DNA from: Bdellovibrio bacteriovorus
GTDB lineage: Bacteria; Bdellovibrionota; Bdellovibrionia; Bdellovibrionales; Bdellovibrionaceae
Direction: 5' to 3'
Assembly: GCF_002208115.1 (NCBI RefSeq)
Contig: NZ_CP020946.1
Span: 3,038,001 to 3,102,000, forward strand
Length of the DNA: 64,000 nucleotides
This document shows, piece by piece, positions 8,586 to 47,735 of the stretch. Numbering within the stretch: position 1 is the stretch's first letter; each line of letters starts with the position of its first letter. Position numbers and translations under genes: made by a program. The notes under the pieces are model-generated. The model did not search any database. It was not told the origin of the DNA and saw only the letters and a program-made list of their open reading frames with translations.

Positions 8586-8597
8586 CTCTGCACGAAA

Positions 8598-8690
8598 AGC
8601 GGCGCGCGATAGCGCCAGCGCTCTCCCAAAAGGCGGCGCCCGAAAGGGCCAGCCAAAAAAACCGCGGCGCGCGCAGCGCCAGCCCCCCCC
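8598..8690 (-). repeat. Three REP-like GC-rich hairpin units
   Basis: Read on the minus strand, three units share the frame GCTGG-hairpin-GCGCCGC and are followed by T-rich stretches: about 8661-8690, 8631-8656 and 8598-8620. The inner stems differ (GCGC/GCGC or GCCC/GGGC) but always pair. Two more units of the same family lie at 32302-32357. They resemble repetitive extragenic palindromes, and the short T runs give them a terminator-like look. Confidence 0.75.
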
Positions 8691-8729
8691 GAACCCCGAA
8701 AACGCAAAAAACCAACCACCTGGAACAGC

Positions 8730-8850
8730 GGTTGGTCAAAAGGGTTCAAGCGCAAGGCGGAGGGTCCTACCGCAGCGGAGGCGTGCTCCAAGCACGTCGG
8801 AGCGAGGACAGGGCCCGACAACGCAGTCGATTGGGCCCTTTTCACCAACC
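8730..8850 (-). repeat. Dispersed structured 3' element, copy 1
   Basis: A 15-position terminal stem (8730-8744 with 8836-8850) has one C-C mismatch and encloses a conserved core. The core holds a perfect hairpin CGTGCT-CCA-AGCACG (8782-8796), an enclosing GTCCT/AGGAC stem and a CGAC-AACGCA-GTCG hairpin. A second copy at 32375-32500 has the same core, and its terminal stem differs in sequence but still pairs. It begins five bases after the stop codon of the minus-strand VWA lipoprotein gene, so it would be a 3' untranslated element of that transcript. The strand is assigned on that ground. No ORF here is credible. Confidence 0.8.
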
Positions 8851-8855
8851 GTAGC

Positions 8856-10484
8856 TTACTTAATGCATGAGTAGTAAACTTCGTAGTTTCCTTGTGGCAG
8901 CATTTGGTCGAAGACTAGGTTCAGTCCTTCCATCTTGCGAGTGCCATCATAAACCTGCCCATCTTTCAGAACCAGGATGGATCTCATGGCATCCACAACC
9001 GGCGCGCACGTCAGGGTGATGGATTTCAAAGTCTTGCGCACACCTTCGGCGATGCCCTGAACTTGGGCTGCATAATCAGATGCACACACGTCCCCGATCA
9101 CACCGCCGGTCAGTTTGGAGATCTGCTCATAGCGGAAGCCGGCAGAATAACCTTCACCTTTCAAACACGCCTGATCATCAGGACGCGCGATGATGGAATG
9201 GAAGCTCATGGCTTTCTGGGAACCGAAGCTGTCGGCCACGAACTTCACAAAGTTTGCAGGATCATTCTTAGGACCGTTGGCCGATTCATCTTCGTCCGAG
9301 ATCACCACAACCGCCAGTTGGGAATCGTTACGGATGAAGTTCGCGTTGCCACCAGAGGCCGTCATCGAGCGTTCGATGGCGCGGTAAGCAGCGAAGATAC
9401 CCTGCTCACTGCCGGAACCGGTTTCAGATCTTTGCAAAGTGTTGCTCAATGTTGTGCGGGCTTCAGCGTCGTTCATGGAGGACGTCAGAATATACTGCCC
9501 CGGTTTGTTATAGAGAGGAACCAAGCGACCATCACCCAGGGTCTTGTGGACTGGATCGGTGGTGGTCACGGCAAGCTGCCAGTCCAGACCTTTCACCACA
9601 TCCAGGAAGTTACGAACTCGGGACGCCATGCTTTTTTGCTCGTATTCCATGGAACCCGAGTTGTCGATCACGAACAGAATATCCACTTTTTGGTATTCGT
9701 TCACTTTCACATTGTTCACCATCTGTTTGTACATGGAGGACACTTTGAAAGAGATGGATTTTTCAGACGCATGACCCAGTTTGTCTTTTGCAGAAACTTT
9801 CAGAGTGTAATCACCACCAGCAAGCTTTGGCAGAACGATCTTGTTCTGACCAGCAGCGCAGGCTTTGGTGGAAGTGCCCATAGAACAAGTCACAGAGGCC
9901 ACACCGGCACCCGCGTCCGTCACGGTGAAGATCAGTTCCACATCCAGGCCTTCTTCAACCGGAGCGGAAGGATATTTTGCAAACACGATGTCCGGACCGA
10001 TCTGGTCAATATAGATATGACGAACATAGCAGGAACTTGTGCGTCCGTCGTGATCGCGGAACTGCACGCTGACAGGAACATTCTGATTGGTCTTTGAGCT
10101 TAGCAAGGTGCCAGAGTCCGCATAGTCCACCCAAGCACCGCCGCCGCAGGATTCATTTTCAGAAACCTTGGTGTAAGCCGTGTGGAACGGAGGATAGAAA
10201 TCAAGACTGAGGGTGGTGGAAGCAGTCAGAACAGCGCCTTTGTTGATGTCAAAACCATCCGGTTCGGAAGGAGCTGGAGTGCCGCCACCATTGTCGCCCC
10301 CGGTACTGCCCTCTTCGCTGCTGCCGCCGCTGGAGCCGCCACCAGAGCCTGTTTCCGGCTCAGTGATCACACTGAAGTCACCATTGTTGAGGTCTTGTTT
10401 CACCTCGGTGCCGCCGCCATTGTCCAGACATCCAGTCAGAGCGATCGCTGCGATCAATGTGCTCATCAGTCCTAGATTCTTCAT
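8856..10484 (-). CDS. VWA-domain lipoprotein with Ser/Gly-rich linker
   Basis: The 542-residue product begins with a lipobox (IALTGC, Cys 19), then a low-complexity Gly/Ser/Glu linker (residues about 45-75), an Ig-like region, and a von Willebrand A domain. The domain starts at VDILFVIDNSGSM near residue 265, with the complete MIDAS motif DxSxS and a later VVISDEDES strand. VWA domains with MIDAS bind metal and protein ligands, so a cell-surface binding role is inferred. GGGAGAGGG just upstream of the ATG supports the start. Structured repeats follow the stop codon directly. Confidence 0.87.
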   Translation of the reverse strand: MKNLGLMSTLIAAIALTGCLDNGGGTEVKQDLNNGDFSVITEPETGSGGGSSGGSSEEGSTGGDNGGGTPAPSEPDGFDINKGAVLTASTTLSLDFYPPFHTAYTKVSENESCGGGAWVDYADSGTLLSSKTNQNVPVSVQFRDHDGRTSSCYVRHIYIDQIGPDIVFAKYPSAPVEEGLDVELIFTVTDAGAGVASVTCSMGTSTKACAAGQNKIVLPKLAGGDYTLKVSAKDKLGHASEKSISFKVSSMYKQMVNNVKVNEYQKVDILFVIDNSGSMEYEQKSMASRVRNFLDVVKGLDWQLAVTTTDPVHKTLGDGRLVPLYNKPGQYILTSSMNDAEARTTLSNTLQRSETGSGSEQGIFAAYRAIERSMTASGGNANFIRNDSQLAVVVISDEDESANGPKNDPANFVKFVADSFGSQKAMSFHSIIARPDDQACLKGEGYSAGFRYEQISKLTGGVIGDVCASDYAAQVQGIAEGVRKTLKSITLTCAPVVDAMRSILVLKDGQVYDGTRKMEGLNLVFDQMLPQGNYEVYYSCIK

Positions 10485-32266: not shown

Positions 32267-32301
32267 ACGTGCATCTCTTTCTAAGTTAAAAACCGATCCC
32301 A

Positions 32302-32357
32302 CCCGCGGCGCTCCCAAAGGGAGCCAGCCCCCACGCGGCGCCCGAAGGGCCAGCCAG
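32302..32357 (-). repeat. Two REP-like GC-rich hairpin units
   Basis: On the minus strand two units share the frame GGCTGG-hairpin-GCGCCGC with the three at 8598-8690. One has stem GCTCCC/GGGAGC (about 32302-32329), the other GCCC/GGGC (about 32333-32357). They lie between the structured element and the pgi start, in the same order as at the other locus. Confidence 0.75.
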
Positions 32358-32374
32358 AAACCAACGGAAAATAA

Positions 32375-32500
32375 GCGGGTGATCAAAACAGTCCGAGCGC
32401 AAGGCGGAGGGGCGCCCTCGCAGCGCAGGCGTGCTCCAAGCACGTCGAAGCGAGAAGGCGACCCGACAACGCAGTCGATCGGGCTGTTTTCATCGCCCGC
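32375..32500 (-). repeat. Dispersed structured 3' element, copy 2
   Basis: Its core matches copy 1 (8730-8850): GCGCAAGGCGGAGGG, hairpin CGTGCT-CCA-AGCACG (32430-32444), and CCCGACAACGCAGTCGAT. The terminal stem is 20 positions (32375-32394 with 32481-32500), with two G-U pairs and the same single C-C mismatch as copy 1. Several pairs are changed on both sides relative to copy 1. It directly abuts the stop codon (32501-32503) of the minus-strand metallophosphoesterase gene. Confidence 0.82.
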
Positions 32501-33640
32501 CTAGGAAATAGCTACGTCTTCTTCGATTTTGTGGTAACCCTTCCACTCCTTCAATCTGCCTCGCGGCCGACCTCCGTCTTCAGGGTATTCGATAAGAACA
32601 TAGGTTAGTTTCGTGATCTTTCCCAAGGACACAATATCCAAAGAAGTGATCTCAGTCCATGTTCCCGTATTGAAATATTCTTTATTCTCTGACCACTGGC
32701 GATACTGGTACACGTGCGTGTGACCAAAGATGACTGTGTGCACACGGTCATCCCCCAGGATTTTACGCGCCGATTCACTTAAATCCGGAAAGATGGCGCT
32801 TTCCGCAATCACCTGAATGATACGCTTCAAAGGCCAATGACGGCGCGGATCCTTTACCAGGATGCTTTTCAGGAAATATCCCATGGCCATAAAGAACGCG
32901 CGAACCATTGTTCCGGTTTCGTTCAGGAAAGCCCAGCGGACCATTTTGCCAAAAGGACGGATCTTGTCGACATGGGGGTAGTGTTGTTTGATTTTCAACA
33001 CGACTTCCAGGAAGAAATGGGATCCAAACGGCAGGTTGAGGATCGGTTCCACCAGATCCTTTTTCAGGAAAAACTTTTTGGGGTCCATACGATTGGCGGC
33101 CTCATGCATGTGGCCGTGTTCGATATGAACTCCATCAAAGAAATAGACGATGTTTTTAAAACGAATTGGCGTCCCGATGACCTGATTCAGGTAAGCGCGG
33201 CAGGCGGGCCACAGCATCCCTTGATCGTGGTTGCCGACGATATAGGTGATGGTGTTACCGGGTTTTGCGGCGAATTCGGCCAAAGCAGTAAAGACAGCTT
33301 TATGCCCGTTCACGCAGTCTTTCAGAATTTCCAAGGTGACGGATTCGGTGATCACTGAAAGGAAGTGGCCCTTGTAATCACACTGCAGGAAGTTCAGGAA
33401 GTCCCCGTTGATAATCAGTTCGACTTCATAGTCACGATAGACACCGGTGGAATAGAAGTGGATGAATTCCACCAGCTTTTCCCCGTAATAGAATTCTTCG
33501 AGTGAATTGATTCCGCCTTTTTCCAACAGGCGGCCCTTCCCCAAATGGAGATCACTGACGATGATCTTGATTTTTTTCACGGGAGCAGGTTTCGCGACGG
33601 CGGTGCCCTCGCTACTTTCTACCTGGGAAGCGGACTCCAT
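32501..33640 (-). CDS. Calcineurin-like metallophosphoesterase
   Basis: The 379-residue cytoplasmic protein carries the dinuclear metal motifs in order: SDLHLGKG, INGDFLNF, VGNHDQGM, IEHGHMHE and FGHTHVYQY. It belongs to the broad PF00149 group; UDP-2,3-diacylglucosamine hydrolase (LpxH)-like activity is possible but not shown. It starts one base after the coiled-coil gene stop, so the two are co-transcribed. The structured repeat starts at its stop codon. Confidence 0.85.
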   Translation of the reverse strand: MESASQVESSEGTAVAKPAPVKKIKIIVSDLHLGKGRLLEKGGINSLEEFYYGEKLVEFIHFYSTGVYRDYEVELIINGDFLNFLQCDYKGHFLSVITESVTLEILKDCVNGHKAVFTALAEFAAKPGNTITYIVGNHDQGMLWPACRAYLNQVIGTPIRFKNIVYFFDGVHIEHGHMHEAANRMDPKKFFLKKDLVEPILNLPFGSHFFLEVVLKIKQHYPHVDKIRPFGKMVRWAFLNETGTMVRAFFMAMGYFLKSILVKDPRRHWPLKRIIQVIAESAIFPDLSESARKILGDDRVHTVIFGHTHVYQYRQWSENKEYFNTGTWTEITSLDIVSLGKITKLTYVLIEYPEDGGRPRGRLKEWKGYHKIEEDVAIS

Positions 33641-45653: not shown

Positions 45654-47735
45654 CTAGGGGCGTGGCACCCACTTGACAGTATTTTCGCCCACGAAAAAGA
45701 TTTTTCGCCCTGACACAACAAGACCGAAAGCCGAGCCAACTTCTGAATCCTTGCTTCCATTTGACGGAGCTCCCGTATACCCAGGAGCTGTGCTTCGCAA
45801 CCCAGCGATGGTAGTGACAACCGCACCTGGAGTGATCTTGCGAATTATCGGTTCACCCCATTCCGCAGTATAAATATTGCCTGCAGAGTCTGAAGCCAGG
45901 GAATGGGGTTGAGAAAAACGCGCACCACTGCCCGTTCCGTCAGTACTTGCACCCTGGCCGGCCGCACCGGCAAAAGTGGTCACGACCCCCGCCGAAGTGA
46001 TCTTGCGAATGATGTGGTTGTCTGTATCGGCAACAAAAATATGTCCGGAAGAGGAAACTGTGATCCCCCTAACATTGGAAAAGGTTGCGCCGGTTCCTGT
46101 ACCGTTCGTGCTCCCTTGAACTCCCACCTGTCCTGCAAATGTCGTTACAACCCCTGCAAGCGTGACCTTTCTAATGACGTAATTGCCCGAATCAGAGACA
46201 AAAAGATTGCCAGCCCCATCACTTGCGATTCCAGCCACTCCAGCAAAACGGGCCGCAGCCCCCGTCCCGTCAGCGAATCCGGAATTATTATAGCTTCCCG
46301 CCAACGTGGTCACCACACCCGCCGGAGTGACCTTTCTAATGCGATATTCGTCGGCAACATAAATATTGCCGTCTTCGGCCATACTTAAGCTTGTGGGGTA
46401 GCTGAAACGGGCTGCCGAACCTGTTCCGTCGGCATCTCCAGCCTGCCCTGGACTTCCAGCAATGGTGGTTACAATTCCAGAGGGGGTGACCTTTCGGATA
46501 GTTCTGTTCGCAGTGTCTGCGACATAGATATTACCGGCAGAATCCGTCGTGATACCTTCCGGGGCAGAAAACAGCGCGGTGGTCCCGGTCCCATCCACTG
46601 AACCGTCTCCGCCCCAGCTGAAGCTCCCTGCCACCAAGGTCACAACACGTGCGGGCGTGATCTTACGAATTGTCGAATTGTCTGAATCAGTGACTATCAG
46701 GTTCCCGGCTCCATCCATGCCTATGCCCGTAGGACCGGAAAATTTCGCTGCGGTCCCTGTGCCATCTTCTGCACCATAATCACCGTAAGCCCCGGCAACA
46801 TTGCTGACCACTGCCGAAGGTGTGATTTTGCGAATCGCAGAATTGCCATAGTCGGCCACATACAAGTTGTCAGAACTGTCGATGGTAAGCCCCACCGGCC
46901 AGTTAAATCGGGCCGCCGTACCAGTCCCATCCACGGCACCATTAGCATAAGCTTGTCCGGTAAAAGTCGTTACGACCCCGGCCGGGGTGATTTTACGAAT
47001 AGTCGCACAAGTCGAGCACGCGACGTAAATATTCCCCGCTGAGTCACCCACAATACCCGTTGGATAACTGAACTGGGCTGCAGTTCCGGTCCCGTCAGCG
47101 CAGCCAGCGACTTCGCTTCCGGCGAAAGTCGTCACCACCCCCGCAGGAGTCATTTTCCGAATCATACTGTTGTTTTTATCCGCGATATAAAAATTGCCGT
47201 CCGCCGCCAAAGTAATGCCCTCCGGGTCACTGAATCTTGCAGCAGATCCGGTCCCGTCTTCGCTTCCGGTAATTCCAGGCGATCCCGCCACCGTCGTCAC
47301 GACACCCCCCGGGGTGATCTTGCGGATGGTGGATGTATTTCCTTCAGTTACAAATAGATTTCCAGCTCCATCGATGGCGATTGCCTTCGGATAATCAAAC
47401 CGGGCATTTTCACCCGTTCCATTCACATGTCCAAAAGCGCCGAGCTTCCCCGCAAAAGTCGTAACAAATCCATTAGAAATCTTACGAATGACAGAGGCAT
47501 TGCTGTCTACGATAAAGATGTCGCCCGCCGCATTGACGGCGACCGCACGAGGTTCGCGAAACCTGGCTAAGCTCAAGGGCCCATTTATCATGGCGGATGC
47601 TTGGAACTGACCCGCAAGAAGCTGCAGCCCGACATACTTTTTTTGCCAAAAGGCGCCTCTACCGAATCCCAAAGAGCCAATTGGCGATACCAGCACCGAG
47701 ATGAATGAAAGAAGCATCACAGCCTTTTTAAACAT
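45654..47735 (-). CDS. Secreted NHL-repeat beta-propeller protein
   Basis: The protein has a signal peptide and about 12 repeats of roughly 55 residues with the pattern GIAxDxxGNxYVADxxNxxIRKxTPxGVVTTxAGxxG, ending DGTGxxARF. It probably forms two six-bladed propellers or one large one. The start at 47735 follows GGGGGA; the frame to 47756 is rejected. It is the third gene of the adhesin operon, 21 bases after the adhesin stop, and may be a surface binding partner. Confidence 0.88.
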   Translation of the reverse strand: MFKKAVMLLSFISVLVSPIGSLGFGRGAFWQKKYVGLQLLAGQFQASAMINGPLSLARFREPRAVAVNAAGDIFIVDSNASVIRKISNGFVTTFAGKLGAFGHVNGTGENARFDYPKAIAIDGAGNLFVTEGNTSTIRKITPGGVVTTVAGSPGITGSEDGTGSAARFSDPEGITLAADGNFYIADKNNSMIRKMTPAGVVTTFAGSEVAGCADGTGTAAQFSYPTGIVGDSAGNIYVACSTCATIRKITPAGVVTTFTGQAYANGAVDGTGTAARFNWPVGLTIDSSDNLYVADYGNSAIRKITPSAVVSNVAGAYGDYGAEDGTGTAAKFSGPTGIGMDGAGNLIVTDSDNSTIRKITPARVVTLVAGSFSWGGDGSVDGTGTTALFSAPEGITTDSAGNIYVADTANRTIRKVTPSGIVTTIAGSPGQAGDADGTGSAARFSYPTSLSMAEDGNIYVADEYRIRKVTPAGVVTTLAGSYNNSGFADGTGAAARFAGVAGIASDGAGNLFVSDSGNYVIRKVTLAGVVTTFAGQVGVQGSTNGTGTGATFSNVRGITVSSSGHIFVADTDNHIIRKITSAGVVTTFAGAAGQGASTDGTGSGARFSQPHSLASDSAGNIYTAEWGEPIIRKITPGAVVTTIAGLRSTAPGYTGAPSNGSKDSEVGSAFGLVVSGRKIFFVGENTVKWVPRP

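Follow-up and report, generated by a model that had tools for sequence, protein, structure and literature searches.

What is the structured sequence that follows two minus-strand genes in this 64,000-nucleotide window of the Bdellovibrio bacteriovorus genome, and does its structure belong to the mRNA of those genes or to DNA? The first-pass annotation had described a pair of structured 3' elements, and the intervals that it gave for them were borne out (Table 1); the shared sequence is 84% identical and gap-free. The paired changes that it reported in the terminal stem, the common C-C mismatch (C8737 versus C8843 in copy 1, C32384 versus C32491 in copy 2) and the replaced middle stem were all found. 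The stop codon of the neighboring gene, said to lie 0 to 5 nt away, was measured at 5 nt from copy 1 and 0 nt from copy 2. The plus strand folded at -69 kcal/mol in copy 1 and -74 kcal/mol in copy 2 (z = -5.6 and -6.2; 0 of 200 shuffles were as good). The minus strand, which is the sense strand of the adjacent genes, folded more weakly (z = -3.3 and -4.8).

Table 1. Coordinates of the two element copies, their parts and their neighbors in the 64-kb window
Feature	Position	Strand	Remarks
Element copy 1, full length	8730..8850	+ (folding strand, opposite adjacent gene)	136.1 bits, model R1
Element copy 2, full length	32375..32500	+ (folding strand)	142.9 bits, model R1
Copy 1 outer stem, left arm GGTTGGT	8730..8736	+	Pairs with 8844-8850
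Copy 1 outer stem, right arm ACCAACC	8844..8850	+	
Copy 2 outer stem, left arm GGGTGAT	32377..32383	+	Pairs with 32492-32498
Copy 2 outer stem, right arm ATCGCCC	32492..32498	+	
Core left strand of internal loop, GCGCAAGGCGGAGGG	8750..8764	+	Kept between both copies and between phyla
Core right strand of internal loop, GCCCGACAACGCAGTCG	8813..8829	+	Kept between both copies and between phyla
VWA-domain lipoprotein gene (neighbor)	8856..10484	-	Stop codon 5 nt from copy 1; outside element
Metallophosphoesterase gene (neighbor)	32501..33640	-	Stop codon abuts copy 2; outside element
Intrinsic-terminator-like hairpin behind copy 1	8710..8737	-	5' arm is the element outer-stem arm ACCAACC

Other repeats were noted in the window. 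Beside copy 1 (three, at 8595-8690) and beside copy 2 (two, at 32298-32357) are short, GC-rich repeated hairpins with the pattern GCGGCG-CCC-GAAA-GGG-CCAGCC, which resemble a REP-type family distinct from the element. At 45801-47328, a degenerate direct repeat of 46 nt occurs ten times, about every 165 nt, and probably represents a gene for a repetitive protein. No tRNA or tmRNA gene was found in the 64-kb window.

The element had been taken for a two-copy one, but it is a family. BLAST with copy 2 as the query recovered 25 strong copies in the 3.77-Mb genome that contains the window (G000), and a covariance model (R1) built from 22 of the G000 copies found about 30. Similar numbers were obtained for G006, which we take to be B. 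bacteriovorus HD100, and G002, which we take to be Tiberius; orthologues of copy 2 were present in these two genomes and in G016. A covariance-model search of Bdellovibrio genomes, as the first-pass annotation had suggested, found further copies in 20 of 23 other genomes, with 0 to dozens of copies each, counts that include reverse-strand matches to the same element. Clear relatives were present in four genomes from other families of the order. Shorter copies without the inner arm occur in the Bdellovibrio family, one copy has a loop insertion, and in G013, which holds 44 copies, some are in tandem. Rfam 15 gave no match in the window at the gathering score, the sole result of an E-value search of Rfam was mir-133, below the cutoff, and at 18 loci of other taxa the element had no overlapping Rfam match. 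There was no match among viral contigs or phages, and we found no description of such an element in the literature covered, mainly open papers. The motif AAAAGTAAGYAGGTACCTTTT, possibly a promoter or operator repeat, recurs in intergenic DNA to the left of the element at three loci (L009, L023, and L104).

Alignment and folding revealed one asymmetric rod of 110 to 120 nt with a conserved internal loop and no REP palindrome in either half. Among the 22 copies, 23 of 41 pairs were compensated, with both sides changed, and 97.2% of cells were paired; 0 of 500 shuffles scored as high, and six slid controls came nowhere near. Selection on a paired structure, the first part of the original claim, is therefore strongly supported. 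The outer stem has a position beside an invariant T that was A-T, G-C, C-G or T-A across 60 distinct sites, the counts of its two sides agreeing, and the sequence logo contained neither an invariant base outside the stem nor an invariant GTAG/CGTC terminal tag. The outer and lower stems of the element strand contained 97 G-T pairs and a single A-C pair, and the element strand gave the more stable fold at 58 of the 60 sites with RNA parameters and at 57 with DNA parameters. The ratio of G-T to A-C and the better folding indicate that selection for pairing acts on the strand opposite the adjacent gene. Hence, the C-C mismatch and the structure are features of the gene's antisense strand and not of its mRNA.

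The element is positioned at gene ends. At 44 of the 60 sites, the opposite-strand gene had its stop codon close to the right end of the outer stem, in a range from 9 nt inward to 8 nt outward of that end and mostly at a distance of 0 to 5 nt; random positions gave 3%. The left end had no stop-codon preference. The stop codons were TAA (19 sites), TAG (18 sites), and TGA (7 sites). The idea that stop codons serve as TAR tags for insertion was ruled out, since TGA also is used and no base is invariant. The outer-stem arm doubled as the arm of a native intrinsic terminator at 5 of the 60 sites (expected, 0.34; p = 5e-4), copy 1 among them, where the two pairings are mutually exclusive because they share this arm. 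An attenuator-like switch between outer stem and terminator is real at these 5 sites but is not general. At several other sites, the element comes after the T-run of the native terminator, and at 22 of the 60 there is a separate terminator on the gene strand within 80 nt downstream. Several convergent sites have no room for another terminator, and one copy lies between the same-direction genes rplY and pth. The inner stem of Bdellovibrio copies is flanked by AAAA/TTTT. A T-tract is present in these and in several Nitrospirota and deltaproteobacterial copies and absent from the relatives in Streptomyces and Myxococcales. Assignment to the intrinsic terminators, a hairpin and then a U-tract in all members, was rejected, since GC-rich relatives have no U-tract.

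The orientation of the element follows replication. In six complete genomes anchored at dnaA, 167 of 173 copies had one polarity, with the folding strand as the leading-strand template. This tally comprises copies of at least 50 bits, drawn from searches and from sampled stretches of genomes, after reverse-strand matches to the same element had been removed by hand. Compared with a leading-strand gene share of 0.555 (from a simple ORF caller), P was 7e-35, computed on counts that are not independent, since G000, G002, and G006 have many orthologous sites in common. G013 alone gave 44 of 44, and G012 gave 27 of 28. With two exceptions, the confident copies of G000 lie on the minus strand up to the middle of the map and on the plus strand beyond it. 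In two genomes with a rearranged order, local GC skew was followed by 7 of 7 tested copies (G016) and by 8 of 10 (G007), the other two being located where skew is near zero. Gene orientation was ruled out as the source of the polarity, as the leading-strand gene share is just 0.56 and about 44% of genes are lagging. Two copies whose neighboring genes are on the lagging strand (L004, at rplY-pth, and L005) agree in orientation with replication and violate the gene rule. The six wrong-way copies were among the more diverged (median, 83 versus 130 bits; p = 0.012). Copies were widely spread along the replichores (G006, KS p = 0.61). One of the two wrong-way copies of G000 is the inverted, diverged member of a three-copy cluster (L148; G000:C1:1458719-1460541), the G002 orthologue of which likewise holds a wrong-way copy. 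The first-pass annotation had allowed that no further compensated copies might turn up, or that position and orientation might prove random; the copies are many, and their placement and orientation are nonrandom.

Comparison of G000, G006, and G002 revealed clean empty sites without target duplication at two loci (L030 and L090). A further copy was found on the 48-kb Bdellovibrio plasmid pBdHAGR2 (AP029178.1; L427, 3001-3116), where it likewise adjoins the stop codon of a gene on the other strand. The clean empty sites and the plasmid copy show that the element disperses. At other sites, the alternative allele has a native terminator in place of the element, and several "empty" alleles contain a different terminator sequence, so insertion and replacement are not always separable there and the direction of change is uncertain. 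At L104, a 1.2-kb segment that includes the element begins exactly at the stop codon; a cassette reading of this insertion was ruled out, since gene and element form no cassette. Orthologous copies in G000 versus G002 or G006 were of two classes. Those of one class were 94 to 100% identical, mostly above their flanking genes, and this near-identity of retained copies suggests host-level constraint beyond mere persistence. Those of the other were 81 to 88% identical, with paired differences arranged in blocks and the outer stem wholly or largely kept in most, i.e., interiors are exchanged blockwise.

Relatives occur well beyond the order. The core pattern GCAAGGCGGAG-N42..70-CGACAACGCAG occurred in at least 120 stretches when the GTDB species set was scanned; among the matches listed, these included Nitrospirota, Deltaproteobacteria, Myxococcales, Planctomycetes, and Streptomyces. 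The core is invariant in these matches by construction. The lower stem, apical hairpin, and folding strand recur even though they are outside the pattern, and the element strand was more stable in 74 of 78 copies from other phyla, among the matches listed. With R1, genomes of Nitrospirota and Deltaproteobacteria, one Phycisphaerae MAG, and one Myxococcales MAG each yielded many copies, and Streptomyces yielded a few. At E ≤ 1e-4, it gave no match in two of three Firmicutes genomes or in Nocardioides; Firmicutes and some Actinobacteria gave weak matches, and these may be outside the family. Nitrospirota and deltaproteobacterial loci had a stop codon beside the right end and local skew of the same sign, although skew outside Bdellovibrio is local only and is confounded with gene direction. 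The MAG Dive96_bin1.91 (JAJRTR01, L277-L356) contains very many copies of about 170 nt with termini ATTGCAAAATT/AATTTTGCAAT; its longer variant, like that of the Phycisphaerae MAG, had no clear polarity or stop-codon adjacency. In a Myxococcales MAG (L321, 3292-3787), a relative directly abuts the 3' end of a tmRNA gene (Rfam RF00023).

Genes for candidate mobilizing enzymes were sought nearby. Six Y1 (RAYT) genes in four genomes are followed at a short distance by a same-strand copy of the element. No Y1 gene was found in G013, G017, or G008; G003, G004, and G014 have a Y1 gene and no element. Among the matches listed, a Y1 gene was nearby at 1 of 80 core-pattern loci. RAYT as a general mobilizer is weakened by those three genomes and by the scarcity of Y1 neighbors in other phyla. 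A retroelement was ruled out because most genomes have no reverse transcriptase (RVT_1 was present in 4 of 25 and absent from the genome of the window). If the coordinates of G006 are identical to the published ones, a RAYT-like gene at G006:C1:563484-563747 lies near APsRNA3 and APsRNA4 (561,854-563,081; PMC3627812).

In integron attC sites, the folded strand is antisense to the gene at its stop codon, and structure is kept above stem sequence. Our element resembles them in both respects, with a folded strand antisense to a gene whose stop codon adjoins it and structure more conserved than stem sequence. Unlike attC, it has no conserved recombination core boxes, its outer stem varies freely with compensation, and it is dispersed in conserved synteny rather than in cassette arrays. 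ERIC/IRU-like and BRE repeats (PMC3110155) also are dispersed structured intergenic repeats of about 90 to 130 bp, but the element stands apart from them in its replication polarity, in wobble pairing that is specific to one strand, and in its recurrence in several phyla. IS200/IS605 single-strand transposition (PMC6006769) shares replication-strand bias, hairpin recognition, and the absence of target duplication at clean empty sites. In contrast to IS200/IS605, the better-folding strand of our element is the leading-strand template and there is no transposase gene inside it.

The role first proposed, that of a 3' UTR stabilizer, processing signal or regulatory RNA in the adjacent mRNA, fits the location behind stop codons and the strong covariation, yet we consider it very unlikely. 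The gene-sense strand carries A-C mismatches and is the worse folder at 58 of 60 sites, a function in the gene-sense strand could not produce a polarity of 167/173 with about 44% of genes on the lagging strand, the family disperses, also to a plasmid, and none of the HD100 attack-phase sRNAs (PMC3627812) overlapped the listed element copies. The DNA hairpin element that the first-pass annotation named as its alternative is the better lead. RNA could also act from the other strand: a hairpin and U-tract in element-strand RNA would halt head-on antisense RNA polymerases before a leading-strand gene, which would account for both the stop-codon position and the polarity. The folding strand is indeed the antisense strand, and the stop codon lies 0 to 5 nt from the right end at most sites. 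The AAAA/TTTT around the inner stem in Bdellovibrio and the convergent sites with no space for another terminator also are consistent with this. We regard such a boundary function as unlikely because the U-tract is missing in GC-rich relatives, 22 of 60 gene strands have their own terminator, and one copy lies between genes of the same direction; moreover, it leaves both the conserved core loop and the block exchange unexplained.

Movement of a REP/REPIN-type element by a RAYT (Y1) transposase would suit the six Y1 genes that precede an element, since GTAG REPs are known from stop codons (PMC3733652) and compensatory changes occur in REPIN hairpins (PMC3116915). The element shares with these systems its dispersed, intergenic, compensated hairpins, its tandem copies, and some copies beside RAYT genes; like REPs, the ends of which often provide the stop codon, it is mostly downstream of genes. 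We nonetheless think this origin quite improbable. A REPIN is two inverted REPs of 20 to 40 nt around a spacer, whereas the element is a single asymmetric rod of about 120 nt whose halves are not inverted REPs and which has no invariant GTAG/CGTC end tag. REPs and REPINs also differ from it in its near-perfect replication polarity and in the copy-rich genome without a RAYT, and REPINs differ in that the internal-loop core of the element recurs in several phyla. The distribution of Y1 genes among genomes and core-pattern loci likewise argues against it. A signal that marks polarity along the whole chromosome for the replisome, segregation or repair, to the benefit of the host, would match the near-perfect polarity, the wide spread along replichores, and the strong constraint at retained sites. 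Copy numbers from 0 to dozens among species of one genus are unlike those of an essential signal, and there is little probability that this is the explanation.

The account that we favor, tentatively and at somewhat less than even confidence, is a nonautonomous dispersed repeat that acts via the fold of one strand, with a logic like that of REPINs and attC sites, and that is spread and filtered by fork direction. New copies would arise behind the 3' ends of genes, often at or in terminator hairpins, and would be moved by an HUH/Y1-type or other hairpin-processing enzyme with single-stranded DNA as the active form. Fork direction would set the orientation, the strongly folding strand becoming the leading-strand template, through insertion bias, survival bias or both. 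With the strong folder on that template, the weak folder, with its A-C mismatches, is the one exposed on the lagging-strand template. In a wrong-way copy, the strong hairpin would instead sit on the exposed lagging-strand template, and such copies would not be retained and would decay; the divergence of the wrong-way copies favors loss over insertion at forks. Copies then swap interiors with each other while the outer stem of each site remains. Against this account, RAYT genes adjoin just six copies and the 44 copies of G013 occur without a detectable one. Also, a folding strand on the leading-strand template is the opposite of the lagging-template targeting of IS200/IS605, were that strand the substrate. 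The near-identity of retained orthologous copies and the alleles at which insertion and replacement are not separable likewise count against it. It is possible, although we hold it rather doubtful, that the relatives form an undescribed multiphylum family of folded-strand elements whose placement behind the 3' ends of genes and whose orientation are dictated by the fork, and that they spread and swap interiors through a new single-strand mechanism other than RAYT, IS200/IS605, integron or reverse transcription.

Because its orientation reads the fork (167/173), its G-T/A-C ratio names the folding strand, and its interior is block exchanged, the element is a natural assay for the fate of a hairpin on both template strands at the replication fork. 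If the Nitrospirota, Deltaproteobacteria, Planctomycetes, and Streptomyces relatives are one family, they would constitute a common class of bacterial intergenic structure that is missing from Rfam.
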